A stretch of DNA of 64,000 nt from Prorocentrum cordatum (taxonomy: Eukaryota; Sar; Dinophyceae; Prorocentrales; Prorocentraceae). Positions 12,714 through 41,533 of the stretch are shown here, piece by piece; positions within the stretch are counted from its first letter, which is position 1, and each line of letters begins with the position of its first letter. The notes under the pieces were generated by a model. That model searched no databases and was not told the DNA's origin. It saw only the letters and a list, made by a program, of their open reading frames with translations. Where the stretch lies: the NCBI GenBank assembly GCA_963575745.1, contig CAUYUJ010003447.1, forward strand, positions 1,064,228-1,128,227, given 5' to 3'. The translations under genes and the position numbers were made by a program.

Positions 12714-12845
12714 CTCGTCGCCGGGGCGCAGTCGCGTCGCGGCGTCGGCGGCGGCGCCGGGCGCGGCGTCGAAGGCGGCGACGTCGGGCGCGGTGTCGAC
12801 GGCGTCGGCGTCGGGCAGCGCGAGCCCGAGGGCGGTCGCGAGCGC
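12714..12845 (-). CDS. Sirtuin gene, exon 10 by family order: C-terminal extension
   Basis: The exon starts at a CGCAG|GCG acceptor and ends at a GACGAG|GCCTCG donor of the GC type: 132 bases, 44 codons, phase 0 at both ends. It reads ALATALGLALPDADAVDTAP early and DAATRLRPGDE at the end, with nearly every codon ending in G or C. Joined to the previous exon it gives DEVLE-ALATALGLALP, which continues the last helix of the Sir2 domain as expected (a D-x-VLE-xLA-xxLGL pattern). The rest is an Ala/Asp-rich extension beyond the catalytic core, of unknown role. The fit of phase and helix supports it; the extension itself is inference. Confidence 0.65.
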
Positions 12846-13539
12846 CTGCGCCACGTGTTGGCCGCGGGGGGTGGGGGCGGGGGCGCCGATCGAAACGAGC
12901 GGCGCGGGGCACGGTCGGCGAGCGGCGAACGGCGGCGGCTAAGGGCAGCGACCGGCGACGCCGACGACCGGCGAGCGACGAGCGGCGCGTGACGGCAACG
13001 GAAGCCACGAGGAGAAGGAGGGAGAGAGGGGGACGGCTCGAGGCGGGAAGTTTGAAAAACAACGAGGGGAGGAGGAAGGAGAACGATGAAAACGACGAGG
13101 GGGGAAGGAGCATGGGAATGAGATCGAACGTTGAGTTACTTTTTGGGAATGCTCATGCTATACATGTTTTTTTGTGAACGGGGTTCAAGAGGTTCCAAAG
13201 TTCGGGGTATTTGGCTACGGCACTAGGAACTGCATGGACAACGAAGGTCGGAAAAAGGGTAGTGAGGCGGGGAAGAATAACAGGGAGAGGACAAACAAAC
13301 ATGGGAAAACAAGAAAGAAGAGGAAGAAACGTCGGAAAGCAAGGAACATCTGGAAAACAAAAACGGAAGGATGAGGGATATGGGCGGGGAATGATGGTGG
13401 GCGGAAGGGACGAGAACGGGAAGGAGGACGAGGGAGGGATGGAAAGGGGGGGCGAAGGCAAAACGGGAGGGAGGGCGAGGTGCACAGGAAGGACGGAGCT
13501 GGCGCGCGGCGTTAAGCAGTTTCCTTACTTACGTGGATA

Positions 13540-14105
13540 GCGCTCGAAGGCGAGCGAAGGTCAAGACTCGCGCGTTGCATGGGAAGCCCAATTTCGGAAC
13601 ACAATGTACCGCGCTGGGGTCGGCGCTCGGCGCCGATCAGATTCCGCGCGCGACTGGCAAGCACGCGAACGCACGCGGGGGGACTCTTCGCCCGGCGTCG
13701 GCAGCGTTCTCGGAAAACGATGTTCGAGCGGCTGTCGGCGCGTAGCGCCGAAAGAAAGGCGTCTCGCTGCGCAGCTGGTAACGTGCGGGTGCGCGCGGCC
13801 ACCCCTGCGGCTGCGTCGCAACGGCGTCACACACGCAAACCTTCGCTCCGCAACCACCACGCGGGGGTGGACCGCATGAGAGGATGTCAGCTACAGCCGC
13901 GATGTTCGCGCTCGGGTCGGCGCGCGTCGCCATGCAGCTTCCTTGCTCCCCTGGTCTGCGCGCGCACAGGGGGCGACTCGCGAGTCGCATGGTCGGCTGG
14001 ATCTCGGAGGCCGGCGCGCTGCGCCAATCTCAAGTCTCGCGCTGAGGTCGGCGCGTGGAGAAACGCCAGCTGCAGTCGCTACGCAAACGCCACACGGGGT
14101 GCGGG
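13540..14105 (+). repeat. Degenerate higher-order repeat of about 170-180 bp
   Basis: Blocks of ctgcgtcgcaacgg-tcacacacgc, gggggtgg-ctgcatgaaaagaygtcag and gctcgggtcggcgcg recur with variation, and the order leads directly into the 52-bp array that follows. Confidence 0.5.
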
Positions 14106-14109
14106 GGGG

Positions 14110-14690
14110 GGCTGCATGAAAAGACGTCAGCAGAGAGCGCCGCGTGCGAGCGGCGCGAAGCAGCGCCCTCCGGACGCGCCAGAGAGCGCTTCGCGCGAGC
14201 GGCGAGCAGGCACGGAACCGCCCTCGGGGCGCGCCCAAACGCGCCGCGCCCGAGCGGGCACGCACAAGAGATCCCGCGGGGCGCGCCAGAGCGCGTCGCG
14301 TGCCAGCGGGCACGCCAGAGGGCGCCCTCAGGGCGCGCCAGTGACTGCCGCGTGCGAGGGGGGCTCGCACAAGAGAGCCGTCGGGGCGCGCCGGAGCGGG
14401 CACGCACGGATGCGCTCTCGGGGCGCGCCAGTGCGCCGCGTGCGATCGGGCACGCGCTAGACCGACCTCGGGACGCGCCAGAGCGCGCCGCGTGCGAGCG
14501 GGCACGCACGAAAACGCCCTCGGAACGCGCCGAAATGCACCGCGCGCGGGCGGGAACTCACGAGAGGCGCCCTGGGGGCGGGCCAGGGCGCGCCGCTTGC
14601 GAGCGGGCACGCACTAAAGCGCCATCAGGGCGCGCCAAGGTGCGCCGCGTGCGAACGGCACGTGCGGAAAGGCTCTCGGGTGGCGCCCGC
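14110..14690 (+). repeat. Minisatellite of about 52 bp
   Basis: Units centred on gcgcgccagagcgcgccgcg followed by tgcgagcgggcacgcac recur at 14252, 14304, 14356, 14394, 14444, 14496 and 14601, mostly 52 bases apart. The array lies in the intron between sirtuin exons 9 and 10 and makes long Arg/Ala-rich open frames on both strands. Confidence 0.75.
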
Positions 14691-14959
14691 GCGGGGGGGG
14701 GGGGGGTGCAATGCTGAGCAGATCCGCGAAAATCCTCCGAAGACTCTAAGCCTATGGGCCCCCCTTCCTGGCCATCTCCGCGCGGACGAGGCAGAGAAGG
14801 AGGCGCACAAGGGGGAGGAGGGCGCCGCACGCCTTCAGAACCGCTTAGAGGCGGACGAGCTGACTCTCGTCCGCCCGCTGGCGTAGTGCATCTGGCACTC
14901 CGCTGAACGCTCCGACCCTCAGTCGCTCGCTGTCTGACGATTGTCAGGGCTTTCGCTCG

Positions 14960-15480
14960 CTCCCGAAAGAGAGAAAGAGAGAGCGAGAGAGGAAACAAGC
15001 CAAGAAACCAAGACAGATATATAGAAATAGAGAGAGAGGAAAAACAAATAAATGAGGCAGAGAGAGAGAGAGTGAGAGATAACACGAGCGAGCGAGAGAG
15101 AGAGAGAGAAAGACAAGGAAGGGGGGGAAACCGGCAGAGGGATTGGGAAAGGGCGGGAGAAAGGGGGGGCGATGAAGACGAGGGTGGAGTAGGGGAGAAG
15201 GAGGTCGAGTGGCTTCTCGTTGTTTAGGGAAGGGTCCAGGGGGTTCAAAAGCTAAGGGGGGGTACGGAAGGGGAGTCTATCGACTCTGGACTCGAAATGG
15301 CGGAGGTGAAGAAGAAGGTACGGAAAGGATGAGAGGAGGGTGGGGGGGGGGAGAAGGGAAGAAAAGGAAGGGGAATGAGGACGTAACACAAGAGGAACAG
15401 AAGGGGACATATGAGAAAAGGGGCATTTGAGAATGATGAGGGCGAGGGATGAGGACGCGGAAAGATGGTGGGCGGAAATG
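14960..15480 (+). repeat. GA-rich purine tract
   Basis: Over 500 bases of gagaga and ggga-rich sequence on the plus strand, so a polypyrimidine tract in the direction of the sirtuin transcript. Confidence 0.7.
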
Positions 15481-15999
15481 GAAAGAAGGGGGAAGGGGAT
15501 GCGGAGCGGGCGAGGAGGGCTGAAAGCAAGAGAGGATTCCCCCCCTGGAGCAGCAAGAAAGCAACCCATGGCTGCTTCATCCCCCGAACCCTCCTCCCTG
15601 CTCCCCCTCCCTCCTGGGGGAACGACAAGATATCTGTGCCGCTGCCAACTCCTCCCTAGACACCTTCAGGGGCGCCCTCCTACCGTCATCTAGGACGAAT
15701 CCAACTCCGGCGTCGAGGGAAGAGTAGCGAGATCGGTGTACGTTCCTACTCTGTCTGAATTTCCCCTCTCCTAGGAGAAGAAACAACTACATGAACATAA
15801 AATGCCAGAGGTCGGCATGGATGCATTGGATCGACGTTGCGGGGCCGAAGGCGCCGCCAGGGGGGTCCAGCGCAGTGCAGCTCCAAGAGATCGTCGCGGA
15901 CCTTCGATCATGCTATACTCATGTGATGCTTCTCATTCAATCGCTCGTTCATCCTTCCCCTTCACCCTTCAACCCCCCACTCCCCTCTGAGGGGGAGCG

Positions 16000-16195
16000 A
16001 TAGGGGATGACTCTCCCAGGGGGAAATATTGGCCTGGAAGCGGCGATACATCACCGAGAGATTGACGACAAGCCCCTGACAACCGAACCCGGCGCTCCTG
16101 GGAAGGGTGGGCCAGCAAGCCCTCATCGGGGATGAACGGGCCACTGGGGGTCGAATCGCGGTCCACCCCTGGGGCTAACGTTGCCCCTGACCTCC
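16000..16195 (+). repeat. Family A dispersed repeat, copy 5 (diverged)
   Basis: Landmarks are cctggaagcggcgatacatcaccgagagatt, ctcctgggaagggtgggcca, ccctcatcggggatgaacgggccactgggggtcga and gctaacgttgcccctgacc. Confidence 0.7.
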
Positions 16196-16464
16196 GCGTC
16201 GCCGCCGCCGTTCCCCGCCGAGGGCGCTCGGGCGGGCCGAAGCCTTGGCTTGATCGTCTCGCGAAGCAGGAGCGGATCGGAAGCGGATCGTCCCGAACCG
16301 AATCGAAATCGGATGGCCGCGCCTGGCTCCAGGCTCGCGCCCCGGCCGATGCCGGCGAACCGAACCGAACCGAACCGGATCGGAACTGCGGCGCCGGCCT
16401 GCGCATCCAGCCGCACCGAATCGAATCGTACGGCGGCCCCGGGGCAATCGGGCGGCCCGAAGGC

Positions 16465-16500
16465 CTCGAGGACCTCGTCCAGGGGCGCGTACACGCGCAC
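16465..16500 (-). CDS. Sirtuin gene, exon 9: VRVYAPLDEVLE
   Basis: This 36-base exon encodes VRVYAPLDEVLE, the late strand and helix of the Sir2 Rossmann fold (family pattern LRIFA-x-I-D-x-V). It follows a TCGAG|GTG acceptor and ends at a CTCGAG|GCCTTC donor of the GC type. Joined to the exon at 16682-16738 it reads RTRLDPLAA-VRVYAPLDEV without a break, and joined to 12714-12845 it continues into ALATALGL. An alternative 3' border at a GTACGA donor 33 bases further on would add a Pro-rich tail. I prefer the GC donor because the helix then continues. The intron before it is only 181 bases. Confidence 0.8.
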
Positions 16501-16681
16501 CTCGAGCAGGGGATCGACTGCAGAATTGGTCTACCCCAGGATTGATCTTCGCGTCGGATTCGCGCTCAGTGCGCCGAATCCTCGCAGATCTACGGACATC
16601 CCACGTGTTGCTTCTGTCGGTTCGATGAGAAAACCATTTTGGAGGTAGATCCGCTCTGTCGTCGATCCCCTGTGGAAGCAC

Positions 16682-16738
16682 CGCGGCCAGCGGGTCCAGC
16701 CGCGTGCGCTGCAGGGACACCACGGCGAGGCCGAGGGC
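16682..16738 (-). CDS. Sirtuin gene, exon 8: VVSLQRTRLD
   Basis: The 57-base exon has 19 codons in phase 0 at both ends and starts at a CGGCAG|GCC acceptor after a pyrimidine-containing stretch. It ends at a GCG|GTGCTT donor. It reads ALGLAVVSLQRTRLDPLAA: the hydrophobic VVSLQ strand and following turn are the part of algal Sir2 proteins that comes after GTSL and before the LRIF strand. Third-position GC is complete or nearly so. Its position downstream of the GTSL exon on the same strand, and the phase match to the next exon, make a chance match unlikely. Confidence 0.85.
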
Positions 16739-16988
16739 CTGCCGAGGAGCCGCCCGCCCGGGGGGCCCGAGGCGCCGCCCTCCCCCTGCGGGTGCTGCAG
16801 CGCCTCCGCTGGCCTCCTCCCGCCTCCCCTGGCCTGCCCAGAGGCCTCTGAAGGGGCCCAGGGAGAAACAAGCAAGTAGACACAAGTTCGAGGTTGTACC
16901 GATTTTTCGAACATTTTGGGGTTTTCGCCTTCCCCCCCACTGCGCACATGTTCCCATGTTTCCTGGGAGTCGACGATTACTTGTGTAA

Positions 16989-16990
<2 letters not shown>

Positions 16991-17055
<65 letters not shown>
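16991..17055 (+). repeat. (GT)n microsatellite
   Basis: About 65 bases of uninterrupted GT, in the intron upstream of the 16.7-kb sirtuin exon. Confidence 0.95.
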
Positions 17056-17056
<1 letters not shown>

Positions 17057-17189
17057 CGAGGGCCCTCGCGGGGGCGAGCGCCAGGCCAAGCCGTGGCACC
17101 TCGTCGCCCGGCGGCCGCAATTGAGCGCCCTTGGAGAGGAGAGCGCCCCCAAGGCCAACGGCGGGCGCGCGCCCAGTCGCGGTGCAGGG

Positions 17190-18245
17190 ATCCGATCGTG
17201 CGAGAGTTGGGCAGTGACAGCAGGCTCCGCGGCTGCCCGACATGGTTCGTGCAAGGTAGTCCAGCGGTAGTGCAGGACTCAGCCGATGTTAGGAAACGCT
17301 GGTGGAATAAGGTCATTAGCTAAAGTGGAGAGACCAGCGCGGGCGATAAGGGACCTCGTCGAAAAAGGTCGCCAGCTACAAGGCGGGAATGAGATCGTGC
17401 GAGAAGGCAGGCAGCGGCAGCGAGCTCGGTCAAAAAGGAGTCGTGCGACACACAACTCGGCGACAGCGCACGGACGAGATCTTGCGAGAAGGGCGCTCGT
17501 GGGGCTCGTCTCAAGCTACAGCGCGGGAATTTGAGCGTGCGCGCAGGCTGGACGTGGCAGCAGGATCGGTCGCTGCACGGGGGTGTGCGAGGCACATCGC
17601 AGCTAAAGGCGAGAATCAGTTCGTGCAAGAAGGCACGAAATGGCAGCTGGCGTTGTTTCTGCGAACAGAGGTCGTGCGAGAAGGGGTGGGACAGGTTTTC
17701 AGCCACGAGGAAAAGGCAGGCAGTGGCAACTGGCTCGGTTGCAACACGGAGTCGTGCGAGACGGATCTCAGCTGCAGTGCGGGGGTCCGAGCGGGCGAGA
17801 AGGCAGGCAACGGCAGCGGGGAATGCATCTCAACTACAGTGCTGAGATCTATCCGTGTGAGAAGGCAGGCAGTGGCGGCAAACTCTGTTACTGTACGCCC
17901 GGGGCGTGCGAGACACAGGTCAGCTAAATCGCAAGGGTCCGCTCGTACGAGAAGGGCGCCCGTGGGACAGGTGTTCAGATAATTGCAGTGCGGGGATCCG
18001 ATCGTGCGCAAAGGCAAGCAGTGACAGCAAGCGCTGCTGCTACAGGGGAATCGTGCGATGCACATGCCAGCGCGGGAAGGCAGGCAGTGTCAGCAGGCAC
18101 TGTCGATGCCATGGGGCTCGTGAGATCCAATCTCCGCTACAACGGGGCCTGCTGCAGGGGTCAGCTCATGTGCGAAGCGCGTCGGCGAAGGTCTTCAGAT
18201 ACAGTGCGGAGATACATTCGTGGGAGAAGCAGCTTCGCCGGGGCA
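17190..18245 (+). repeat. Degenerate minisatellite (60-90 bp units)
   Basis: More than ten copies of cgtgcgagaaggcaggcagtggcagc followed by ggntcg-t-gctac and ggg-tcgtgcgaga-acat, at about 17401, 17485, 17541, 17625, 17709, 17798, 17860, 17951, 18009 and 18074. Spacing is irregular. Confidence 0.7.
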
Positions 18246-18959
18246 GGCCAGGCTGGGACGTCAACTCTCCTGTCAGCGAGGCCGCGTCGTGACCCACGCT
18301 GCGGACCCAAAACTGTCAAGACCCAGCTGGATGCTCTGCATCCGCCTGCTCCTCCCCCCTGCCTCCAGACCGCGAGGGCGTAGATCTGGGTACGCCCGCC
18401 GCCTGTGACTTCCCACGGCGACCCGAAGGGTGTTTACGGCCGTGCTGGCCGCCGGCCCAGGCGACGACGAGAAGGCGCTTCGGCGCGACACGCCAACCAC
18501 CTCTCGACTCCCAAACGTCGAGCCTCCGAGCTCTTCCCATCCTCCCGCCCCGCGGATAGGGGCGGCCGGATCGGTGTCTTCTGCCCGACCCGTCCCCCGT
18601 TCATCTCCGCCTCCCGTTTCTTCCCTGCCCTCCCCTCCCCTCCCGATCCTCCATCTCCCTCCCGAATCAAACAGACTCGTCACGCAGCAGGACGTGCTAC
18701 TGGGCGGGATGGGCGATTCGCCCGAGACCGCCTTAGAATAATTGATTTCGGGCACTGAAGCACCCGAGAGGAGCTGCACGGATCCAGCACACGGACGTTG
18801 TCAAGCATTGGCTCTTAACCTAGCGCCGCGCACATTCGCCCCCGACGATTCGAACAGCTGGACGGATGGAGGGGGAATGGCTTCAAACGCCCCTACCGAC
18901 CACCTGCCCGTCTGCCCATCTGCTGCTCGATTTCTGATTGGCGTAGTACTCGCCATCAA

Positions 18960-19065
18960 TGATAATGCGGATGATGATGATGATGCTGCTGATGATGATG
19001 CTAATGATGATGCTAATGATGATTATGATGATGATCATGATCACGATCATGATCATGATGGTGAT
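18960..19065 (+). repeat. GAT/ATG trinucleotide array
   Basis: gatgatgat with gatcatgatc interruptions. Confidence 0.9.
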
Positions 19066-19439
19066 GAGGCTTGCATGCCCTCTGAGACCTCACTTTGCCA
19101 ATCATCCCAGAGACGTCGGCCAGATACCGCCAGAGGCCTGTGCAAACCAACTAAAGGCCCAAGGCATATCTGAAGCCTGTGGTAATCGTTCATCCTCATC
19201 TCCTCCCGTTCCTCCGCCTCGTCGGCAAGTGCTGGGTTTTTTTTCTGGCCCTCCATCTACTCCAACACGCAGCCCAGTTGGCTCCGCTTGCCTTGACCTG
19301 GGGCAGAGGCCAACAGAAGTTCCAGCCAGACTCCTCATGACTCGTTCGAGCTGGCTAGCTTGACTTCCTCATCCAAATCCTACTCCTGTTCCTTCAGCCC
19401 CCCTTGCACTTCCTCCTCATCCTCTCCTCTCCCTCCTTT

Positions 19440-19620
19440 CCTTTCTCCCACTCCTCCCTCATCCTCCACCTCGTCCTTCTCCTCCCCCTCCTCCTCCTCC
19501 TCCTCCTCCTCCTCCTCCCCCTTCTCCTCCTCCTCCTCCTCCTCCTCCTCCTCCTCCTCCTCCTCCTCCTCCTCCCCCTCCTCCTCCTCCCCCTCACCTT
19601 GTTCCTCCTCCTCCAGCCAT
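19440..19620 (+). repeat. TCC trinucleotide array
   Basis: Long ctcctcctc run, one of many in the window. Confidence 0.9.
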
Positions 19621-19829
19621 TATTCTCCTCTCGTGCTCCTCTTCGAAACTCGCCTTCTCGCCGATCTGCTCCGCAGGCGTCTCCCAGTGTGAGCGCAGCG
19701 CCGGGGTCACCTTCGGGTCGGGCGATGGGGGCCCGTTTGGGACCTTGGGCTTCCCCAAAAAACTCTGCAGACCTCATCCCGAGGACTCGCGTCCCCTCCA
19801 GAGAACTTCCTCCAGAAGGGTGCGGGATC

Positions 19830-20200
19830 AGTGCGAGGTAGTGGCAGGTGGAGGGTGAAAAGGGGGGGAGTGGGGCGTGGAAGAGGGAGGAGTGGAAGGG
19901 GGAGGGGGGGAGGAGTGAGCGGCATGTGAGGAGGGACGGTGGAAGAGGAGGGTGGGGAATCAGGGGATGGAGCGGAGGAGGAGAAAGGGGCGGAGGGTGA
20001 GGGGTAGAGGGGGAGAGGGCGTGGTGGCCGAGAGATGTGTCACTGGAAAGAGGACGGAGGGAAAAGGAGGGGGTGAATGATGCAGAGGACGAGCAGGGCC
20101 TTGGAGCACGAGGAGAAGAGGCCAACCATGGCGTCAAGCAGAGCGAGCCAGAAGGGAGGCGAGGACGAGGGACGGGGAGGGAGAGGGGGATGACGGCCAG
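19830..20200 (+). repeat. GGA/GGGA purine-rich tract
   Basis: Purine-rich gagggggagg sequence without a coding frame. Confidence 0.6.
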
Positions 20201-21234
20201 GAGCCAGCAGGACGAGCTAAAAACTATCCCATCCCCTGCCCCCATCGTCGCCCAATCCCCCCTCCCCGTCCATTCCCCCACCTGCGTCGTCCCTTCCCGT
20301 GATGCCCCTCTCTCCCTCTTCCTCGCCCCGCCCGCGCCCCCTGCCACCCTCTCCCAGCAACCTTCTCTATGCCATTCCGTGTTTTTCTCTTCTTTGTTTT
20401 TGCTATTCTTGCTCTTTTGTTTTCTCTCTCTCACTCTCTCTCTCTGTCTTGATTGCCGGGCACAGAACGCCCGAGCTGGTCTCCGAGGAGGGCCTCCAGA
20501 CTGCCTGCGCGAATGCACACGCAGTCGGCCCATGCGGCCCTTAGGTCGGAACCCGAAAACAGCAGCGGCTCACGTAGCCCAGGGCAGTCACAGCTGCACG
20601 GGACGCGCCTGTAGCCAGCCAGAGTACACGGGCGCCGGCGCCACGCCCCCTAGCCCGCCGGCCCAACGAAGCAACGGATTGCCCACAGCAGCGTCGGGAC
20701 TTTAGTTCCCCCCACCTCCAAACGTCAGGAGGCCTCCGCAAGGTGACTCCGTTTGGAAGAGCCCTTCCATAGTGGATCCTGGGGCCAGATCCTACACTCG
20801 GGTGGCTATGCCGAACGGCAAGAATATGTCCCCAAGCTGCGTCCAGCAAGAGTGACGATTGAATTGCTACCCGCCGGATTTCCAGACACGGCCGCAGTCC
20901 ATGTGGCACATGTGTAAGTTCCTTGTTTCTGAGTGTGTATTTCTCTATGTCTCTGTCTTTCTGTCTATGTTTCTCTTTGTTGGTCCTATCTCTCTCTATA
21001 TGTCTCTCTCCCTGTGTCTCTACATTAACATAGGTCGCCACCTCTCTTCGTTTCTCTCGCTCGCACTCTCTCTCTCTCTCTCTCTCTCTCTTCCACACTC
21101 ACCATTTTTATGTATATCATTATGGATGTATTCGTTTTGCGTATATATCAACATTGTGTGTACCTACGTTTATGCATGCATGGGTATGTGCGCAAACTGA
21201 TTCACAACAACAAATTCAGGATGACACCAACGCC

Positions 21235-21840
21235 AGGCGCGACGGGATCTGGGGGGAAAGTGCGGTGGGTGGGGGCGCGGCCGCACCAAATCGGTGGCTC
21301 GCACTGCTGCGTTGCATCGGCTCGATATTGGGAGGATGTCTCAGGCAAAACGGCATTGTCTAGACAACGGTTTCAAAAGGGCTGGATCCGGGGAGGACCA
21401 CGCAGCTGCACGGGGAGGGGGGGCAAAGGTGAAATGCGGCTGGCGGGGGCGCGGCATGGGGGCTCGAACCGGCTGGCTCGTACTCTGGCGCTGCATCGGT
21501 TCGACGTTGGGAGGATGCCTCCAGCGAGACGGCGCATTTTTCTACGAGCTGGGGTCAAAAAGGGCTGGATTCGGGGAGGATCGCGCAGCTGCGAAGGGGG
21601 GGAGATTGAATGCGGTGGGTGGGAACGCGGCCAATAAACTCGAGCTGGGTGGCTCGCACTCCTGGGCCGCATCGGCTCGATGTTTGGAGGGTGCCTCAAG
21701 CGAAACGACATCTGTCTTCAAAGCGGGGATCAAAAATTGCTGGCTTCGGAAACAATGTCTCAAGCAAAACATGTCCTTCACGAGTTACCTCACCCGAACG
21801 GCCGATTTTCTTTAAATCGGGCTTTGCCGGCGAAGCGTGT
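21235..21840 (+). repeat. 183-bp tandem repeat, about three units
   Basis: The landmark ggctggatYcggggaggaYc occurs at 21380 and 21563 (183 apart), with a diverged third unit at 21739. Each unit has gcggtgggtggg-gcg, ggctcgcact-ctg, gcatcggctcgat-ttgggagg and gcctcaagcgaaacg. The array fades into related aagcgaaacggcc fragments up to about 22020. Confidence 0.75.
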
Positions 21841-26361: not shown

Positions 26362-26475
26362 CGCGATGCGGTCAGCGGTCGACGGCGTGTCGCACAGGGA
26401 GGTGCCGAGGGCCAAGCACAGGTCGCACTTCAGCTCCTCCAGGCGTCGGTGAATTGACGGGGACAACGACGACGC
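26362..26475 (-). CDS. Sirtuin gene, exon 6: DLCLALGTSL, NAD-binding motif
   Basis: A minus-strand frame opening at a TCGGAG|GCG acceptor reads SIHRRLEELKCDLCLALGTS and then LCDTPSTADRIA. This is the Sir2 signature D-L-x-L-x-L-G-T-S-L: the GTS binds the NAD ribose region, and the following segment with ADRI is characteristic of the algal subgroup. Joined after the 29.4-kb exon it places a short RLEEL helix between NEIHGSW and GTSL. That leaves no room for the two Cys pairs of the zinc ribbon of classical sirtuins. The acceptor region contains sequence related to repeat family C (tccagccgtggcgac in plus orientation). The 3' end is estimated at a GCG|GCGACA site; the next 8-12 residues expected before ALGLAVVS were not found. 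Confidence 0.85.
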
Positions 26476-27440: not shown

Positions 27441-27626
27441 ATGACCCTGGCTTTGCTCCGACGACGCAAGGGCAGGAGGACTCCTCCGCGCTCCTCGGCC
27501 AGCAGGGCGGCGAAGAGGTCCTCCCGCAGCGGCTCCCCGAAGCCCACCTCGACACCCGAGGCCCGCACGGTTGGAACTTCTGGGCAAACCACTGTCCGAC
27601 CCTCCTGGACAGGGAAGGTGCAAAGA

Positions 27627-29386: not shown

Positions 29387-29437
29387 CGTGGGGTTCGCGG
29401 GGTCGAACCACGAGCCGTGAATCTCGTTCACGAAGGC
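29387..29437 (-). CDS. Sirtuin gene, exon 5: NEIHGSW, catalytic histidine
   Basis: The 51-base exon (17 codons, phase 0) follows a pyrimidine-rich acceptor ccctctccccacatggag|GCC and reads AFVNEIHGSWFDPANPT. It ends at an ACG|GTGGGC donor. The His in EIHG is the catalytic residue of Sir2 enzymes (the family pattern is E-x-H-G). The following SWFDPANP replaces the zinc-ribbon start of classical sirtuins and matches a pattern I know from algal Sir2 proteins. Joined to the exon before it, the sequence is RAGVPQ-AFVNEIHGSW, the usual spacing from the QN motif. Short, strongly biased codon use and phase agreement support it. Confidence 0.88.
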
Positions 29438-30816: not shown

Positions 30817-30918
30817 CTGCGGGACGCCGGCGCGCTGCGGCAGCCCGTCGTGGTTCTGCTGCACCCAGCCGTGCAGCAGCCCCGCCGCCCGCATAGCTTC
30901 CAGCGCGCGGTGCCCGGC
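30817..30918 (-). CDS. Sirtuin gene, exon 4: QQNHDGLPQRAG motif
   Basis: The exon is 102 bases, 34 codons, phase 0. It opens at a GGCAACAG|GCC acceptor and reads AGHRALEAMRAAGLLHGWVQ then QNHDGLPQRAGVPQ. The QN-x-DG-L segment is the central Sir2 signature that holds NAD and the acyl-lysine channel (canonical form Q-N-x-D-x-L-H-x-x-A-G). The HDGLP variant and the preceding HRALxAMxxAGLLHxWVQ helix are those of the algal subgroup. The 3' border is GCAG|GCGTGG, a GC donor. Flanking sequence on both sides is decayed GGC/GCC repeat, which makes the sharp protein match stand out. This is the strongest single exon of the gene. Confidence 0.92.
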
Positions 30919-30929: not shown

Positions 30930-31110
30930 CCGAGGTGGCGACGACGAGGCGGCGGCGGCGACGACGAGGCGGCGGCAACGGGGGCGGCGGCGGCGACGGC
31001 GACGACGAGGCGGCGGCGGCGGAAGCGGTGACGACGAGGTGGCGGCGGCGACGGCGGCGACGGCGGCATCGACGAGGCGGCGGCGGAGATGGCGGCGGCG
31101 GCCAGGAGGC
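30930..31110 (+). repeat. GGC/GAC trinucleotide array
   Basis: Imperfect cggcggcgacgacgag repeat immediately upstream of the exon in transcript direction. Confidence 0.8.
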
Positions 31111-31800: not shown

Positions 31801-31824
31801 GGCCAAAACGTCAATGGTCAAACC

Positions 31825-32270
31825 TCATCGCCGGTGCATCGGCGACGGCGTGATAAGCTCAAGATCGCGACGCATCGCCGATACATCAACCATCACCGGC
31901 GCGACGATTCTTCGATCCATCTGATCCGTCCCCTTTGGGAGTCGCGAGCTGTTTTTCGGAGGGCCTGTCGAGACATCGGAGGCTCTCCCGCCCAGCCCGA
32001 ATCCCCTCAAACTGAACCCCCTAGACCAACACATCCCGAGGTCCAGCCCGACCTGTTCTCGAATCTGGTCCAGCCGTGGGAGGGCCGCCGTGATCTCCAC
32101 TGGCCCTCCTCCGACCGTGGCTATCAGTCGGCCGAGCAGTAGTCCAAATCGGAGCACCCGTGCTGTCGCTCCGAAGCTCTCGGTAACACGCAAAACCCCG
32201 TCAAGAACGTTTGAAGACCCTGCGCTGTCCATCTCCACAATATCCTGCTCCACCTGCCACGTAATCCTCG
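31825..32270 (-). pseudogene. Gene-like frame of unknown function
   Basis: A 142-codon minus-strand frame contains EQDIVEMDSAGSSNVLDGVL, TESFGATARVLRFGLLLGRL and AALPRLDQIREQVGLDLG, which is protein-like and not repetitive. It starts just after a possible CAG|G acceptor (gtggcag|gtggag). Third-position GC is moderate (about 65%). Its place between sirtuin exons 3 and 4 does not correspond to any part of the Sir2 fold, so it is more likely a nested relic or an unrelated exon. Confidence 0.3.
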
Positions 32271-32699
32271 CCGTTATCTTTTTTCCTCTTCCTCTTCCTC
32301 CTCGTCCTCCTTCTCCTCCTCCCCCACCTGATTCCCACCACTATCATTCTATCCTCGTCCTCGCCCTCTGCAATCGTCCATCTCCTAGTCCTCCTTGTCC
32401 TGTGCCACCACATCTCCCGCCGAATGTCAGCTTGCGATTGATAAAAGCAAACCGCGCGCGTGATTGAAAGAATGGCTTCACTGCTCGGGCAAATCGCAGG
32501 GGTGCGCCCGCCAAATGCAAACACACCATCGCCACCTACTATAATCGTCCATCTCCTCCTCCCTCTCCTCCTCATCTTTCCCACCTCCCTCCAAATGTTC
32601 TGGACTCCTTCCTGACACGCGCTGGATACGCTCCCAACCGGAACCCACAGACGCTCGCAACACTGACCTTCCCCCCGAAATGCGTCGTTCAAAGCACAC

Positions 32700-32845
32700 G
32701 GAACGAGTCCGATGCATCGGCAGCGTCGGCAATGCATCGGCGACGTCGGAATGAAGAAAGCCGGGCTCCAAATCGAGGCCATATCGCCGAGGACATCGGC
32801 GATGCGGCGCGACGCTCCCTGGCAACATCGGATCCTCCCACTCCT
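32700..32845 (+). repeat. Family B dispersed repeat, copy 2
   Basis: gtccgatgcatcggcagcgtcggcaatgcatcggcg, atatcgccgaggacatcggcgatgcggcgcgacgctcc. Same orientation as the copies at 29985 and 55905. Confidence 0.65.
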
Positions 32846-33136
32846 CCTACTCCTCCTAGATCCTCATCCTCGGCCTCAAAAGGCGAACGCGGGGAAGGGC
32901 AGAAGCATCGGGCATCGGTGCCCCCTCCTCACCTGACCCCCACCCCTTGCCCCCCGCGCGCTGCGCGTCCCTCCTCCTCCTCCTCCTCCAACTCCTCCAC
33001 GGGCCTCCTCCTCTTCGATCCTCGACCCTCCTGGAGCCTCTTCCCTCCTCCTCGATCCACGACCCTCCCTCCTCCTCGATCCACGACCCTCCCGCCTCCT
33101 CGATCCCCTCCTCCATCCTCGATCCTCCCCGCGCGC

Positions 33137-33237
33137 CGTCGGCTGCAGCGCGGGCCAGTCCCTCTCGGGCCGCGGGTCCTTCGGCGGCGGAGGGGACAGG
33201 GCCGGGCGGGCCAAGGCGGGCCGCCCGGGGAGCACGG
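33137..33237 (-). CDS. Sirtuin gene, exon 3: linker ending in LQPT
   Basis: The 101-base exon follows a CGCCCAG|CC acceptor (the only one of the set not followed by G) and ends at CCGACG|GCGCGC, a GC donor. It reads VLPGRPALARPALSPPPP and then KDPRPERDWPALQPT. In this Sir2 subgroup the segment between the GAG-x-S motif and the HRAL helix is variable but ends in Q-P-T or P-T before the helix, which is what is seen: LQPT joins AGHRALEAM. Two leading bases and 33 codons keep the frame between its neighbours. The Pro-rich part is poorly conserved, so the 5' border is less certain than the 3' one. Confidence 0.7.
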
Positions 33238-33289
33238 CTGGGCGACCGGCGCCCACGGGCCACGCGGACCGCGACGGAGACGCCGCCAT

Positions 33290-33460
33290 CGACCGCGACG
33301 AAGACGACGTCGATGACGACGCCGACGCCATCGACGCCGCCGACGCCGCCGACGTCACCACCACAGACGACGTAATCGCCCACAACGACGGAGACGACGT
33401 CGAAAACGACGTCGATGACAACGCCACAGGCGCTATCGAAGACGCCATCGACGACGAAGA

Positions 33461-33491
<31 letters not shown>

Positions 33492-33770
33492 TCCATCGAC
33501 GACACTGACGAGGACGAGGTCAACAACGACGAAAGCGACGACGCCATCGCCTACGACGACGAAGAAGACGTCGAAGACAACTCCGCAGGCGCCATCGAGG
33601 ACGCCATCGACGACGACGACGACGACGCCAACGCCGCCGACGACGAAGACGACTACTACGACGACAACGACGAACAAAAACGGCGCCGACGACGCCGCCG
33701 ACGCCATCGACGACGCCGTCGACGCCGACGATGATGCCCACGACGACGCCGACAACGACGCTGGGCGCCG
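33290..33770 (+). repeat. GAC/GCC trinucleotide array in a sirtuin intron
   Basis: A gacgacgacgcc array forms most of the intron between exons 2 and 3. It gives Val-rich frames on the minus strand and Thr/Asp-rich frames on the plus strand; these are not genes. Confidence 0.85.
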
Positions 33771-34249
33771 TTGGCGCAACTGGCGACCCGCTGGATCGGC
33801 CAACACCGAATCGGTAAATTGGTCCGGATCGGAACATGCGCTGGATCGGGCCTCACTGGCACGGAGGCAAAGTCGCATCGGATCGGCCGAGCCAGGAAGC
33901 ACAACAGCGCCGCTCAAGCATCAGTTCGCATCGGCCCGTCGAGCACGACGTCGATGTCGCCGACGTCGACGACAATAACGACGACGTTCTGGCCCGTCCG
34001 CCCGCGCGACCGACTCGCCCACGACAACGTGTCCCGCACGCCCGACCGACTGACCAACGGCGAAGACGCCGACGTGTTCTGCTCAACCAGCCGACTCGAC
34101 GACTCGACGACGACAACGACGACGTCGACAGCGACGACGACGTCGACAACGTCCATGTCATCCTCGTGGCCACGTGGTCGACGACATCGTCGTCGTCGTC
34201 ATCGACGCCGACGAAGCTGGCAGCCGCTCCGCGGGGGCGCCGAGGCTGC

Positions 34250-34303
34250 CCGCCGCCCTGCTCGCGTAGTCCCCGATGCCCGCCGCAGTGCTGAGGCCTG
34301 CGC
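34250..34303 (-). CDS. Sirtuin gene, exon 2: AGLSTAAGIGDYAS, NAD-binding loop
   Basis: On the minus strand a CGCCGAG|GC acceptor opens a frame reading AGLSTAAGIGDYASRAA. With the last base of exon 1 it restores YTG-AGLSTAAGIGDYAS, the Sir2 signature G-A-G-x-S-x-x-x-G-I that binds NAD; the usual PDFRG is replaced by GDYAS, as in algal members. The exon is 54 bases: 2 leading bases, 17 codons and 1 trailing base, compatible with exon 3. The donor (GCGG|GCAGCC) is my best estimate; later in-frame sites are possible. The exon is embedded in GAC/GTC arrays on both sides. Confidence 0.86.
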
Positions 34304-34314
34304 CTCGGCGTCGG

Positions 34315-34560
34315 CGTCACGGTCGAGGTCGTCGTCGTCGACGTAGTCGTCGTCGACGTCGTCGTCGTCGTAGTCGTCGTCGTAGTCGTCGTCGTCGACG
34401 TCGTCGTCGACGACGACGTCGTCGCGACGTTGTTCGACGTCGACGTCGCCGTCGTAGTCGTCGTAGTCGTCGTTCTCCGACGTCGCCGTCGTAGTCGTAG
34501 TCGTAGTCGTCGTCGCCATCGAAATCGTCGCGACGTCGTAATAAGCGTCGTCGTGAAGTC
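34315..34560 (+). repeat. GTC trinucleotide array
   Basis: gtcgtcgtcgacg with many variants, in the intron between sirtuin exons 1 and 2. Confidence 0.85.
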
Positions 34561-34824
34561 GTCGAGGCTCGAGGATCCAATTTCGAGGATCGGGGATCGT
34601 CGATCATTGATCGGATGGGCCGAGTGCCACTAGTCAGCTTACACCACGTACACTAACACATAACTTACATCACAATTGTACAACAACTATCTTATATGTT
34701 CCATTGCACATCAACACATGGCCCGCACTCCATAAATAATCTCTGGTCGAGGGTTCACAGATCCCCCCTGATTGGATGGGCCCAAAGTTTCCACAGCCAC
34801 CCCCCAGATGGGATGGGTGGGGGA

Positions 34825-35035
34825 CGACGACGACCACGACGACGACGACGACATTAACGACGAAGACGACGACGAACGACGAAGACGACGAAGACGACGA
34901 CGACGTCGACGGCAATACCGACGCCGATGCCGACGCCGACAACGACGCGGACGCCGTCGCAAACGCCGCCAACACCGGCGCCGACGCCCACGCCGACAGA
35001 AGACGCCGACGCCCACGGAAGACGACGACGACGAA
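34825..35035 (+). repeat. GAC trinucleotide array
   Basis: gacgacgacgaagacg with gccgacgcc variants. Confidence 0.85.
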
Positions 35036-35214
35036 CCACCCCACACCCAAAAGGGGGGGCACTGGCACCTTCCGCCAAGCCGCGCCCACAGGGCCACGAC
35101 TAGGGGGGGGGAACGATCCTATTCGCGAGGCCTTCGCGAGGCTCACGGGTGCACCCGTCCAGCACGGGGGGTGGGCGCGATCCCATATGCACTTGGGGGG
35201 AAGTCCTGAATCAG

Positions 35215-35310
35215 ATATTACACCACGTAGCTTGCACCACATGGTTTTAGTAAACAGTGCTAGCTTACCACTAATTAGCACCACGTAGCTTTCACCGCAT
35301 ATTTGAGATA
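35215..35310 (+). repeat. Short-unit repeat, ttgcaccacgta type
   Basis: ttacaccacgtagcttgcaccacatgg and agcaccacgtagctttcaccgcatatt repeat a 12-14 base unit. Related copies occur at 34630-34700 and 36125-36185, and a longer array at 38085-38215. Confidence 0.6.
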
Positions 35311-36480
35311 TCCATGATGATATGATTTACTGTGTGAGGTTCACGCCAACATAAATTATCAAATGCTGATACATGTCCGCCGTCCCCCTTGTGGGGGGGG
35401 CCACCAGGTTGCGCGGGCTCGGCTGTTACGCCCCCTGCGCCACTTCCACTGCCCATTTCACGAATGAATCTGTTGTGGTGTCTCGTTCCCCTGTCGTAAT
35501 GGTTTAAGTCCGTGCAAAGGGGGGCGAACAAGAACTGTACTGACTCAGAACCGCGTCATCAGAAGTTGTGGGGGGATCTTTAGGGCACGTGAAATACGAC
35601 ATATTCGCGTCGCAGCCCAAACCAACTGTCATATTTTGGTTCGGGATCCAAGTTTGGAGGACATGCTTCGGTCCCCCGTCGTTTCATGACAATGCTGCGG
35701 TAACTTTTTGTTGTAATTGGTGATGGAAACGCGCTCCCGAAGTCTCGAGACCCCGTAAAGTGTAATAGAAGGGTGTTCCCGTGGCCGCCATCACGTAAAC
35801 AGTATTGGGATTGCGCACAACTGGCCAGGCAGCAAACAACACTTTAGACAGCGAGCCAATCGGCCTAGCTGCCAACCAGCCAGCCGAAAAGAAAGCCAGC
35901 CAACCGACCAACCCAGCGCGACCGCGCAAGCAATCTCGGGGGGGGGCGGTGGCAGAGGGCAGCGAACTTCAACCCCGAAACAATGACTGCATTTAGGGGC
36001 CTTGCTTCTCTTCGAAGGAACTGGGCCTGCGGGCCATTCTGGCTGCCGCCGTCGCCGCCTCGTCGACGCCCATCGCCTGGGCCTGGAGCCGCTCTGGCCG
36101 CCATGTGGCCGCCGTCGCCGCCCCGTCGCCGCCTCGTCATACATAGATTGCACTGCGTAGATTGTACGGCGCAGATTTCACCACAAACACACACACACAC
36201 CACACCTCATAGATGGCACCGACTTGTTATTGGCACTGTGCGCCCACGAGAACGGTTCCAGCCCGACCGACGGCAAGGACAGCATCGCTGTGGATGCTCT
36301 CGCTGTTGGCGCTGGTAGCGAACACGCGCGCGCGCCTGCGCAACGCGTATCGCCAAAATTCTTCTGCGTAAACGCGGATGCCTCGTGGACGGCGCCGTTT
36401 CGAAGCGACACGGATTGCACAGCATAATCACACGCAACGGACCGTGCGCCGATCGATGTTTTGCGAATAGTCACGCTCAC

Positions 36481-37845
36481 TCAAGCCCAGTGACCGAAGA
36501 GCCCCGCGCAAACCTGGCCGACGGCCCGGGCGATCTCGGGCGCCTCGGCGCGAGCGCCATCCGTGGTTGCCATCTCTACGGCCACGACGCCCCAAACGCC
36601 CTTGGCCAGGCGAGGCCTCGATCACCTACGACGTAGACGCCCGCCCGCCACACACGACGTAGACGCCCTCTTGGCTTTCAGGAGGTCCTTCTCCCATCGA
36701 GGGCCCTCCCGCACTGCCTCGGAGCCCTCGCCACACGCGACCGCTCCGATCTCGCCGACGATCGCACCTATCACGCTGGCATTCTGATTCGCCTCCAGCA
36801 CCCTATTATTGTTTTCGCGCCTCCTGCTGTTTTTGCCAGCCTCGCCTGGCACATCCGCCTCCGCCGCTGCCACACGCAACTCGACGACAACGCCTTCCTC
36901 GAGGCGCACCGCGGCGACGCGGGCCGCCACCCCCGCGCCCATCCTCGTGGATGCCGCCTGGTTGGCCGAGACGATCATGTGCAAGGTCTCCGCATTGACG
37001 TCAGTGGCCGACCAACAATGCTCGTCGGCGTAATCTCGCTGTCGATGCCATCGGAGGCATCGGCCCACGACGCCCACGAAGCGCGACCCGACGCAGAAGT
37101 TTCATGGGGACAGGACCACGCCGTCCACCGCCGAGCACCGCCTCGTGTCCACCTCGAGGCCTATTTGCACACACTGCTGTCTCTCGCAGCCGCCACCCAT
37201 GGAACGGGACTCGACGCAAAGGCCTACCGAGGACGAGACCACGCCGTCCTGCATGCACTGCACCACGTCGCCGTCGATCGCACTCCCCAAGGCGACCTCG
37301 CAGCCGCCGTCCACGAAACGCGACCCGACGCCGAGGTCCGCAGAGCACGAGACCACGCAGTCTTCCGCCGAGCTCTTCATATTGCCGTTGGGCCCGCAAT
37401 GCTCCTGCAGCGCGTCCCGCACGGTCTTCTGGCCGTCCGCCAACTTGGGCAACGGCGGGACCTTCGGCATCCTGCTGCCCGAGATCCCCTGCACCGCCGT
37501 GTCCACCTCGTCCGAAACGCCACCCTCCTCGAGGACCATGTCCGTCTCCGCGCCGTCGCCGTGGAGCCACGCGCATTCGAGGGCATCCACCCAGAACGCG
37601 CCCGCGAGGAGGGAAGGCCCTCGACCACCACTTCGGCCGCTTCGCACTCGAGACGCACTCGGCCGCACTCGGTGTCGTCCTCCTCGCTCGAACCGATGCG
37701 GAAACACTCCACCTGCTCCAGCCTGCGAGCCGCCAACGCCGTCGCCCTGCAGGCCGCGTCCACCTCCGCGACTGGCTCCAGCAACGCTGCCTGTCTGCCG
37801 CCGTCCAGCAGATCGGGGCCACGGCGAAGAAGGGCATGGGAGGGT
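36481..37845 (-). pseudogene. Intronless Cys-rich repeat protein, apparent processed pseudogene
   Basis: This segment of the minus strand has strong coding bias (third-position GC about 0.85-0.9) but no introns. The 5' part (about 37810-37610) reads DLLDGGRQAALLEPVAEVDA and RLEQVECFRIGSSEEDDTEC. A frame change near 37610 leads to GAFWVDALECAWLHGDGAET and KTVRDALQEHCGPNGN. Three repeats of about 38-41 residues follow: CVVSCSADLGVGSRFVDGGC, VVSSSVGLCVESRSMGGGC, and VVLSP-stop-NFCVGSRFVG. The stop in repeat 3 (TGA at 37102) lies where the other copies have a residue. The frame continues to TGA at 36622, with ETLHMIVSANQAASTRMGAG and VIGAIVGEIGAVACGEGSEA, and on to TGA at 36481. I know no family. 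It lies in the intron between sirtuin exons 1 and 2, same strand. Confidence 0.5.
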
Positions 37846-38084
37846 AAGGGAGAACGCGGTCGCAGACACCAAAAAAACGTCATCGCGCGCCATGCCTCTC
37901 CCACCCCGCCCCGCCGTGCGCCCCGAAGGAGATCCACGCGCAAACAACAGCAACAAACTGAGCCAGACACACTACGGGGCTCGCACCCCGTTTGGACCAC
38001 GCACCGCGTCCAAGCGAGGCTTGAGCAGAACTGGCTCAAGCTGAAATGGTTTGAACCAACATGGCAATGGCACATGGATTGTAC

Positions 38085-38215
38085 CAGATACGTAGGTTGC
38101 ACGGCATCTATAGAAAGGCGAATATTGCACCGCATATATTGCACCACTGGTTGAAATACACAGGTCGCATCAACTATACTGCACCGCATAGACTGCACCA
38201 CATATTCGGAACAAC
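38085..38215 (+). repeat. Short minisatellite, ttgcaccgcata unit
   Basis: Repeated 12-14 base units such as attgcaccgcatatattgcacc, gcatcaactatactgcaccgcataga and ctgcaccacatatt. Confidence 0.65.
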
Positions 38216-38379
38216 CTATATGTTTACAGAACCATATGTATATATATACACATATAAATATATAAGAACACGTAGGCTGAACCACATGACATGCTAACAC
38301 ACGATGTTGGGAGTTCACGCTTGTTAGTACTTGCAAATGTAGGCACGTCGACGTATACACGTAAACCGAAATTATGCAT

Positions 38380-38860
38380 ATGTATGTGTGTATGTTTTCA
38401 TGTATGCATCGATGTGTGTATATGACTGCATGGTGTGTGTGCGCGTGTATGTATGTATGTATGTATGTATGCATGCATGCATGCATGCATACATGCATGT
38501 ATGGATGTGTGTACTTGCGAGTTGGTCGATGTATGTGTGTATGCATGCATGCATGCATGGATGTATGCATGTGTACATGTATGTGTGAACATATGTGTGA
38601 ACCTGCATTTGTATTCATGTCTGAACGTATGTGTCTATATGCACGTGTGCATGAAACGATGAGTGTTTGTCTGCTTGTGTCTGTATGCATGTACCAATGT
38701 TGTATGTATGTGTGTATGTATGTGTGAATGGGCGTATGAATGTATGTATGCATGCACGTATGTATGTAGGCATGTATGAATGTACGCGTACCCATGTTTG
38801 TACCGCTATATTAATGTATGTTTGTGTGCATGTATGTATGTGTAGATGTCTGTGTATGTG
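38380..38860 (+). repeat. (ATGT)n / (GTAT)n tetranucleotide array, left part
   Basis: tgtatgtatgtatgcatgcatg with gtgtgt variants. It resumes at 39909-40092 and again at 40985-41045 after two inserted elements. Confidence 0.9.
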
Positions 38861-39909
38861 CGAGAGAGCGCGTTCCACGGGCGCTAGCCTTGGGAACATT
38901 CGGCGGCGCGCTTCGAACCAAGGGGTGGCCCCCCCCCAACATTCGGCGCTGGCGATGGAAACCAGGGGGACTCCCCTCCCCCCCAAACCCCCCCCACCCT
39001 CTCGAAACCCCCCTGCCCCCCTCGGCGCCGGCGCTGGCGGCCGCCAGCAGCGCCGACGGCGGGGACGCAGCGACGATGACCAGAGGCAGCCAAAGGGGGG
39101 GGTCCAACCCCCCCCCTGGCGCCAGCGCCGACGCCGGCGCTGGCGGCTGCCAGCAGCGCTGGCGCTGGCGCTGGCGACGGCGGGGACGCAGCGACGATTA
39201 CAACCACTACCACCACCACCACTACCACCACCATCACCGTCTCAACCCACCACCACCACCACCAACCCACCACACAACCACCACCACCACCACCACCACA
39301 ACTCACCATCATCACCACCACCACAAAAACCCACCACCACTACCACCACCACCACCATTATCTACCACACCACCACCACCACCGCCACAACCAGAACCAC
39401 TAACAGCGGCACAACCCACCACCACCACCACAAACCACCACACCAACAACACCACCACCGCCATCACCACCACCATCACCAGCACCACCTCCACAAACCA
39501 CCACCACCACCACCACCACAACCCACCACCACCACCACCACCACCCAACCACCACCACAACCACCACCACCACAACAAACCACCACTACCACCACCACAA
39601 CCACCACCACCGCCACCACCACCACAACCCAGCATCACCACCACCTCCGTCGTCCTCGTCGAAGCTCCCCGCCGCCGCCGCCCGCGCCCAGAAAAGGGAA
39701 TCGTCGTCCCCGCCGCCGCAGGCGCTGGCCCGAGGAGAGGGAGAGAGGAGACGTAGGGGAGGAAATGGGGGGGGGTGGTCGAACCCCCCCCTCCGGCACG
39801 GGAGAGGGGGGTGGGGTGGGGGGGGTTCGAAACCCCCCACTGCATCCAGGGGGGGGGGTCTGGTTCCAACCCCCCCCCTCCAAGCGACCACAGAACGCGC
39901 TCTTTCGTA
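38861..39909. mobile_element. 1.05-kb element with 15-bp terminal inverted repeats inside the (ATGT)n array
   Basis: The left end cgagagagcgcgttcc (38861) and right end agaacgcgctctttcg (39894-39909) are inverted copies, 15 of 16 or so matching as CGARAGAGCGCGTTCY. Both ends touch tatgtg of the surrounding tetranucleotide array, a possible 6-bp target duplication, though the array makes this ambiguous. Inside are two copies of a palindromic block (gctggcggccgccagcagcg near 39029 and gctggcggctgccagcagcg near 39140) followed by gacggcggggacgcagcgacgat. A CAC/ACC array (39210-39640) and C- or G-runs around gttcgaaacccccc complete it. No transposase frame is visible, so it would be non-autonomous. 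Confidence 0.55.
39205..39640 (+). repeat. CAC/ACC trinucleotide array
   Basis: More than 400 bases of caccaccac with aac, caa and atc variants, making Pro/Thr/His-rich shadow frames. It is internal to the element above. Confidence 0.9.
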
Positions 39910-40095
39910 TGTGTATGTGCGTATGTGTGTTTGTGTGTATGTGTGCATGTATGTGTGAATGTGTGCATGCAAGTGTATGTGTGCATGTGCGTACGTAAGT
40001 ACGACTGTATACGTGCATGTAAGTATGTGTATATGTATGTGTATGCATGGATGGGTGGATTGATGGATGGATGTGTGTGTGTGTATGAATGTATG

Positions 40096-40980
40096 TCGGA
40101 GGCTGGGGGGTGAGTCCGACGTGAAACGGAGACCCCCCCTACCGGTAAATCGATTTCGGTTTCGGGTTCGTGTCGTGCGTGCCGTGAGGTGCGGGCGAGG
40201 CAGAGCTACGTGGGCGCGCGAGAGGGAATCCTCCTGTGGCTGGGCCGCGGCCGGACCAAATGTTTCTCCTCCGGCGGCCGGTGCCGCGTGGTGTCCCGCC
40301 GGTGTCCCGCTGGTGTCCCGAAATCCTCCTGTGGCTGGGCCGCGGCCGGACCAAATGTTGCTCCTCCGGCGGCCGGTGCGGCGCGGTGTCCCGCCGGTGT
40401 CCCGCCGGAGTCCCATTGAGTGAGATCGATCGTGAGATCGATAGTGAGATCGACACTGAGATCGATGTGGTGCCCCGAGGTGTCCCGCGGTGTCCCGTTG
40501 AGTGGGATCAATAATGAGATCGATAATGAGATCGACAGGTGTCCCGTGGTGTCCCGTGGTGTCCCGTTGAGTGAGATCGATAGTGACATCGATGTGGTGC
40601 CCCGAGGTGTCCCGTGGTGTCTCGCTGAGTGAGATCAATACTGAGATCGACAGTGAGATCGACAGGTGTCCCAAGGTGTCCCGGGGTGTCTCGCTGAGTG
40701 AGATCGATAGTGAGATCGATCGTGAGATCGATAATGAGATCGATGTGGTGTCAAGAGGTGTCCCGTGTTGTCCTATGGTGTCCCGCTGAGTGAGATCGAT
40801 AGTGAGATCGATAGTGAGCCCGATAGTGAGATCGACAGGTGTCCCGCGGCGTCCCGTGGTGTCCCGTGGTGTTCCGTTGAAAGAGATCGATAGTGAGATC
40901 TAGAATGAGGTCGACAAGTGTCCCGTGGTCCCGTGGTGTCCCGTTGAGTGAGATCGATAGAGAGATCGATTGAGTCAGAT
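40096..40980 (+). mobile_element. Composite satellite element, copy 1
   Basis: The unit opens with a unique head, tgaaacggagacccccc, cgtgtcgtgcgtgc and gcgtgggcgcgcgagagg. Two copies of ctgtggctgggccgcggccggaccaaatg then follow, leading to alternating blocks of a 10-mer (ggtgtcccgt) and a 12-mer (gtgagatcgata). It closes at gatcgattgagtcagatgt. Head and tail are shared with 58570-59437, so this is one dispersed element and not simply a local array. Here it interrupts the (ATGT)n array, which resumes on its far side. Confidence 0.65.
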
Positions 40981-41478
40981 GTTGGTTACTTGCATGCATG
41001 TACGTGTGTACGTATGTACGTCTGTATGCATGTACGTCTGTGTTCACCTGGCCCAGAAAACCACGCACCCTTCCCTTCTGCTTGACGTCGACGTCCCCTC
41101 CGCTTCCCTCCTTCCCCCATCAGCCATCCCCTTCTGATCCTCGTCATCGTGCAGCCACTGCTGATGAGGCTCTTCCAGGTCGTGCAGTCAGACATCGCCC
41201 TCGCCATCGTCGTCGTCCTCCTCTCACCCCTCCGCCCCTTCCTCCCCCCCATCACCTCCATCTCTCCGTCTGGTGATTGGCATGAAGGAAACTTGTCCTG
41301 AGTGAAACGTATCCTGGACCCCCAAGGGCCTTCCCCTCGGATCAATTCTTCGTCCTGAGCGTGCTCTGGACGCCCAAAACGACGAAACACATCAGGACCC
41401 GCTTCCCCCAGGACCCGCTTCCGTCCATGGCCAGGTGATGCTGCCCCCCGCTGCCTGCTCGTGGGTGGCGGGGGGCGC

Positions 41479-41533
41479 CTGTGTACGCGACGCAGTGGCG
41501 GCTCTGCCTCATCAGGCGCGCCAGCACCTCCAC
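41479..41533 (-). CDS. Sirtuin gene, exon 1 of the recognised set: SRHCVAYTG
   Basis: On the minus strand, after a tttcctgctggcgcgctggag|GTG acceptor, the frame reads VEVLARLMRQSRHCVAYTG. This is the first helix and strand of the Sir2 fold (pattern K-x-x-x-LA-x-x-x-x-x-S-x-H-x-V-x-Y-T-G-A-G). The exon ends after the first base of a Gly codon at ACAG|GCGCCC, a GC donor, and exon 2 supplies the remaining GC followed by A-G-L-S. Joined across 7.2 kb, the NAD-binding motif is restored exactly. All codons but one or two end in G or C. The initiator Met and earlier residues must lie further upstream, towards higher coordinates. Confidence 0.86.

Follow-up and report, generated by a model that had tools for sequence, protein, structure and literature searches.

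The window considered here, 64,000 nucleotides of contig CAUYUJ010003447.1 from the red-tide dinoflagellate Prorocentrum cordatum, very probably carries on its minus strand all but one of the 21 coding exons of a sirtuin gene that appears intact. The predicted product of 438 residues combines a nicotinamide adenine dinucleotide (NAD)-binding domain of the SIRT6/SIRT7 type, a short loop in place of the zinc module, and a β-domain resembling KOW/SH3 domains, and is expected to act as a deacylase. The exon chain, its open frame, the family, the retained catalytic residues, the predicted fold and the absence of the Cys4 module were all obtained by computation. The gene is real, mostly ordinary for the P. 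cordatum genome, and already annotated.

An earlier note on this DNA had proposed a Sir2-family gene whose minus-strand exons, joined in one phase, carry in order seven motif strings. A six-frame search located all seven strings on that strand, each once and collinear, at 41503-41477, 34301-34260, 30858-30826, 29428-29408, 26424-26395, 16723-16694, and 16500-16465, and the single phase of the joined exons was likewise confirmed. A profile of 15 homologs, from which the draft join was excluded, was run without gaps over both strands of the window. The six best matches scored 88.4, 58.7, 50.0, 47.4, 43.9, and 29.0 bits, all on the minus strand and in protein order, with the next-best scores elsewhere at 23.9 bits (minus) and 21.8 bits (plus). 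In 30 dinucleotide shuffles the top score per shuffle reached at most 27.6 (mean 24.2). Since all six scores exceed every shuffle maximum, these matches lie beyond chance.

The profile search against the Sir2 family that had been proposed as a check, with a lack of any match to count against the gene, was run and returned a Sir2 match. The first join of 158 residues gave 30.7 bits with Pfam SIR2 and 155 homologs at E ≤0.001. A join of 267 residues scored 44.3 bits with PF02146, above the curated cutoff of 24, and the annotated protein P0121 scored 41.5 bits. The same family was matched at E 0.01 by all 75 aligned members, namely P0121 and 74 relatives, over which the motif and zinc-module counts below are also taken. 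The joined exons thus belong to a Sir2-family gene.

P0121, a P. cordatum protein of 438 residues found with the 267-residue query, is the gene's own product. Scoring covered the 7997 candidates with the most shared words, and the best 120 of 174 matches were listed. The protein is labelled 'unnamed protein product' by NCBI and 'Deacetylase sirtuin-type domain-containing protein' by UniRef. Because it is already held in these databases, the gene is not hidden, as had been supposed. P0121 shows 92% identity over 96% of the query; its alignment with the draft join has 275 columns, of which 252 are identical, 19 contain gaps, and four are mismatches beyond the wrong 3' end of the draft.

The model built before P0121 was known relied on splice sites of the form G[TCA]...AG, a single phase throughout, and a high G+C content at third codon positions (GC3). 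It comprised ten exons and then two more upstream, and a further candidate on that side (X2), with its end at 49425, was kept as tentative; X4, taken singly, reached 13.0, the highest control score being 10.4. P0121 subsequently agreed with this chain of 12 exons and the tentative X2, except at one 3' end, where X15 had been read through to a TAA at 12657; P0121 splices at 12714, the end of the range given in the earlier note. The first candidate for X7 (32146-32117, WTTARPT), which had a higher score but a GC3 of only 50%, had been dropped in favour of 33178-33137, and P0121 confirmed that choice. The search between X11 and X13 had left the gap unsettled, with X12 ranked 14th among 2675 candidates and lacking two residues, until P0121 settled it. 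With AG acceptors, GT, GC or GA donors, and exon ends movable by 14 bases, save for the start of the first exon and the end of the last, a single solution survived, in which 20 exons between 52100 and 1334 reproduce residues 1-398 of P0121. The last junction reads AAG^GC...GAG^GC, with the X20 donor at 1341, so the window encodes residues 1-395 plus two bases. Residues 395-438 are encoded on the contig beyond the window.

The gene starts at 52100, and its downstream end lies beyond the first base of the window. All exons in the window are on the minus strand. X1 (52073..52100) opens with the ATG at 52100 and encodes residues 1-9 and the first base of codon 10. It is followed by X2 (49425..49498), encoding (G)PPHGALLRGAGLAPARLVAACAEE, X3 (44967..45001), encoding ARPGFASERAD plus two bases of E46, X4 (41815..41848), encoding FLDTPASLAAK, and X5 (41479..41533), encoding VEVLARLMRQSRHCVAYT(G). 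The NAD-binding motif is found on X6 (34230..34303), which encodes (G)AGLSTAAGIGDYASRAAGSLGAPA. X7 (33137..33178) encodes DPRPERDWPALQPT, X8 (30817..30918) encodes AGHRALEAMRAAGLLHGWVQQNHDGLPQRAGVPQ with the QN.D motif, and X9 (29387..29437) encodes AFVNEIHGSWFDPANPT with the catalytic His155. Next come X10 (27494..27547, VGFGEPLREDLFAALLAE), X11 (26362..26436, ELKCDLCLALGTSLCDTPSTADRIA), X12 (19654..19710, VTPALRSHWETPAEQIGEK), X13 (16682..16738, ALGLAVVSLQRTRLDPLAA), X14 (16465..16500, VRVYAPLDEVLE), and X15 (12714..12845, ALATALGLALPDADAVDTAPDVAAFDAAPGAAADAATRLRPGDE). The C-terminal β-domain starts approximately at X16 (12299..12331), which encodes AVVAAGPDRGN. X17 (11407..11453) encodes VLRAVRRTQLGDLEL plus two bases, X18 (8201..8251) residues 329-345, the region of (S)LAGAPGSPPRRALLGS, and X19 (5920..5974) (W)WLGRGSGPPPALLPPGAE. 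X20 (1341..1435) runs from VPPQRTLASLL to GSA plus two bases. X21, positioned by hand at approximately 1062048-1061919 of the contig (C3447), lies 2.2 kb outside the window.

Altogether the gene has 21 exons over about 54.4 kb (a hand sum), where nine exons in 29 kb had been counted before; 11 exons lie within 41533-12714 alone. The exons in the window average 60 bases, and the longest measures 132 bases, exactly as previously given. The 19 introns in the window range from 181 to 7175 nt (mean 2609), and about 2.4% of the gene span within the window is coding. Of the earlier intron range of 0.18-9.6 kb, the lower bound holds exactly, while the supposed 9.6 kb intron consists of a 6651-nt and a 2915-nt intron on either side of X12. 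The donors of the 20 introns are GC in 15 cases, GT in three, and GA in two, and 19 of the 20 acceptors are AG^G. The frame is open over all 21 exons with no stop, the splice sites are intact, and GC3 is 0.93. One genome paper gives P. cordatum means of 11.7 exons per gene, 239.9 bp per exon, 4709 bp per intron, and 24,462 bp per gene, with 51.4% GC, 24.7% GT, and 23.8% GA donors and 79.7% AGG acceptors (PMC10666404); a second reports a genomic G+C content of 59.7% (PMC11453091). Measured against these published figures, the gene is longer, its exons are more numerous and shorter, its introns are shorter, and its donors are genome-typical. Long introns and GC or GA donors are thus usual in P. 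cordatum, whose mean exon length exceeds that of this gene.

Intron 13 (16501..16681, minus strand, 181 nt) folds into a hairpin over almost its full length, with -77.6 kcal/mol as RNA (z -5.0) and -40.8 kcal/mol as DNA (z -4.6). Its ends form a perfect terminal inverted repeat of 12 nt, and the 5-nt duplication GGTGC spans both splice sites. The signature used for introners by the P. cordatum authors is an inverted repeat of 8-20 nt with a direct repeat of 3-5 nt near the ends (PMC10666404), and intron 13 displays both. At least one intron of the gene therefore looks, from its sequence, like a candidate introner element. No second copy of intron 13 occurs within the 64-kb window. Terminal inverted repeats of at least 8 nt were present in only two of the 19 introns checked, and so an introner origin is not established for most introns. 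In a search for a relict of the spliced leader, matches in the window carried five to six mismatches in 21 bases, and one match at the family locus L081 carried four; these were judged to be noise. The window also contains two minisatellite arrays, 40227-40969 in intron 5 and 58739-59406 upstream of the gene, with the related units AGTGAGATCGAT and GGTGTCCCGT and a higher period of 127 bases. Tracts of CGA/GTC trinucleotides at 33436-34521 pair as imperfect inverted repeats reaching 143 nt (71% complementarity), and X6 is located between the arms.

The protein is closest to SIRT6/SIRT7 (class IV) both by sequence and by fold, yet it lacks the Cys4 zinc module. Among solved sirtuins, SIRT6 and SIRT7 gave sequence matches of 146 and 145 bits and the next family 82 bits, and SIRT6 ranked first in both fold searches; the predicted fold is the sirtuin Rossmann fold. 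G76, A77, Q135, N136, D138, and H155 are retained in all 75 sequences, and the QN.D motif invariably reads QNHD. The stretch from the catalytic His to the GTS motif measures 37-46 residues and never contains the CxxC..CxxC pattern of a canonical zinc-bearing sirtuin (0 of 75), although a lone CxxC is present in five members, P0121 among them. The previous description of the motifs as the variant form of algal members is accurate in that another dinoflagellate and protist transcripts display the same type; it falls short in that the divergence goes beyond motif spelling to the loss of the zinc module. Searches of an open-licence library brought up no description of a zinc-less branch or of a sirtuin-KOW fusion. 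Among the 68 prokaryotic loci for which a His-Gly distance was obtained, out of the best 80 of at least 341 confirmed, no credible zinc-less relative was found. Of the 80 loci, 74 were parsed and six were not; six of those parsed yielded no distance. The distance is 66-106 residues in 66 of the 68, the 13 residues in the other two being parsing artefacts, and the strict two-pair Cys pattern is present in 42 of the 74. A single scan of viral_contigs produced 32 pattern matches, none of them a relative.

Towards the C-terminus, four strands are predicted at high confidence for residues 302-343. Of the 55 members of at least 330 residues, 37 contain a G.WW motif, and the Pfam KOW model is matched at E ≤0.01 by eight of the 75. 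KOW-like may be the best name for this domain. In the relative P0126, the sirtuin domain is preceded by a zf-UBP domain, which scores 25.1 bits (cutoff 22.7). A search of the 4.13-Gb assembly (21,875 contigs; the window is C3447:1064228-1128227) revealed further family members at L081, L082, and L083. Intronless stretches of up to 172 codons cover residues 44-215 in L081, 44-168 in L082, and 104-175 in L083, whereas residues 44-215 of the gene studied here are interrupted by nine introns. L081 is zinc-less by sequence; for L082 and L083 the visible part of the loop is limited to its beginning. In a further paralog, L086 on contig C17292, the motif reads QNAD and the catalytic His is followed by 99 residues that include three CxxC; it resembles a canonical zinc-type sirtuin.

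That the chain is a chance or mistaken join of unrelated short matches, or of parts of two genes, is hardly credible. Such an error would be favoured by the short exons in a repeat-rich, GC-rich region and by weak single scores (X3 16.5 against a control of 16.0, X2 10.2 against 17.0, and X7 10.6, below two rejected candidates). It is countered by the six collinear profile matches on one strand above all 30 shuffles and by the agreement of P0121 with a chain drawn up beforehand, which refute it for the conserved core and leave the C-terminal exons X16-X21 as the weakest links. A silent or decaying copy, with active members of the family elsewhere in the genome, is a very improbable explanation; the loci L081, L082, and L083 would supply such members, but the uninterrupted frame, intact splice sites, high GC3, and conserved active site all speak for an intact gene.

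The likeliest function of this gene is that of an NAD-dependent protein deacylase or mono-adenosine diphosphate (ADP)-ribosyltransferase. By the chemistry common to sirtuins, NAD would bind in the Rossmann pocket, His155 would serve as the base while the acyl group moves to ADP-ribose, and the C-terminal domain may help to bind the target or nucleic acid. Several findings weigh against the overall picture. P0121 is a gene prediction, apparently from the same assembly, and identity with it therefore does not prove independently that the gene is transcribed or that every junction is right; X16-X21 are supported mainly by that prediction. No NCBIfam deacylase model reached its curated cutoff (best NF001753, 65.3 bits against 243), which indicates that the protein is not an ordinary bacterial-type deacylase. 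The invariant QNHD and the absence of the zinc module, which in known sirtuins supports the substrate side, count against the deacylase function. The KOW similarity is weak: P0121 gave no match to Pfam KOW, and of nine relatives shown only P0149 scored above the cutoff (24.7 against 22.3). Owing to the missing zinc module, NAD hydrolysis or another NAD-using reaction is the chief functional rival. A sirtuin-fold enzyme that, like the SIR2 domains of bacterial defence proteins, does not deacylate proteins and instead has NAD hydrolysis or small-molecule turnover as its activity would suit the absent module and the fixed QNHD, and one study describes the SIR2 domain of DSR2 as an NADase with catalytic Asn and His (PMC10973363). 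The proximity of the protein to SIRT6/7 in sequence and fold argues against it, as does a PADLOC scan of three relatives (P0121 not among them), in which no match was better than E 0.013. This rival is unlikely, though by some distance the least so of the three, and protein deacylation or ADP-ribosylation is preferred.

The gene structure carries little weight beyond being a good example of how sequence alone allows the recovery of a dinoflagellate gene whose exons average 60 bases, and one already annotated. The protein family is of greater use: in a class IV-like branch that keeps its active site intact but lacks the zinc module, nature provides a test of the module's role. Tentatively, and with more doubt than conviction, a large SIRT6/7-like branch in dinoflagellates and relatives may have undergone a single loss of the zinc ribbon, with a conserved loop of the SWFDPSNPVV type bridging the gap, a change from QN(V/C)D to QNHD and, often, the gain of a KOW-like tail; its targets might be bound to RNA or to transcription, in nuclei without ordinary nucleosome packing. 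Sirtuins are reported to be more numerous in most dinoflagellates than in most other eukaryotes (PMC4751559).

Human SIRT6 and SIRT7 share with P0121 the GAG motif, QN.D, the catalytic His, and the LQ.T..D stretch. They differ in having QNVD/QNCD where P0121 has QNHD, and P0121 has an extra C-terminal β-domain. SIRT7 residues 193-254, the stretch presumably holding its zinc module, face just 20 positions of P0121. The Effrenium voratum protein P0014 shows 51% identity over 73% of the query, shares CDTPSTADR, and also lacks the zinc module; it is shorter (256 residues) and without the conserved N-terminal part. The bacterial defence proteins DSR2 and ThsA share the SIR2 domain, for which NADase activity has been reported (PMC10973363); they are set apart by the PADLOC result for the three relatives. 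Chlamydomonas SRTA is an algal class IV sirtuin and silencing deacetylase, likened to P0121 here by description; its residues 17-272 were modelled on SIRT6 at 46% identity (PMC7722844).

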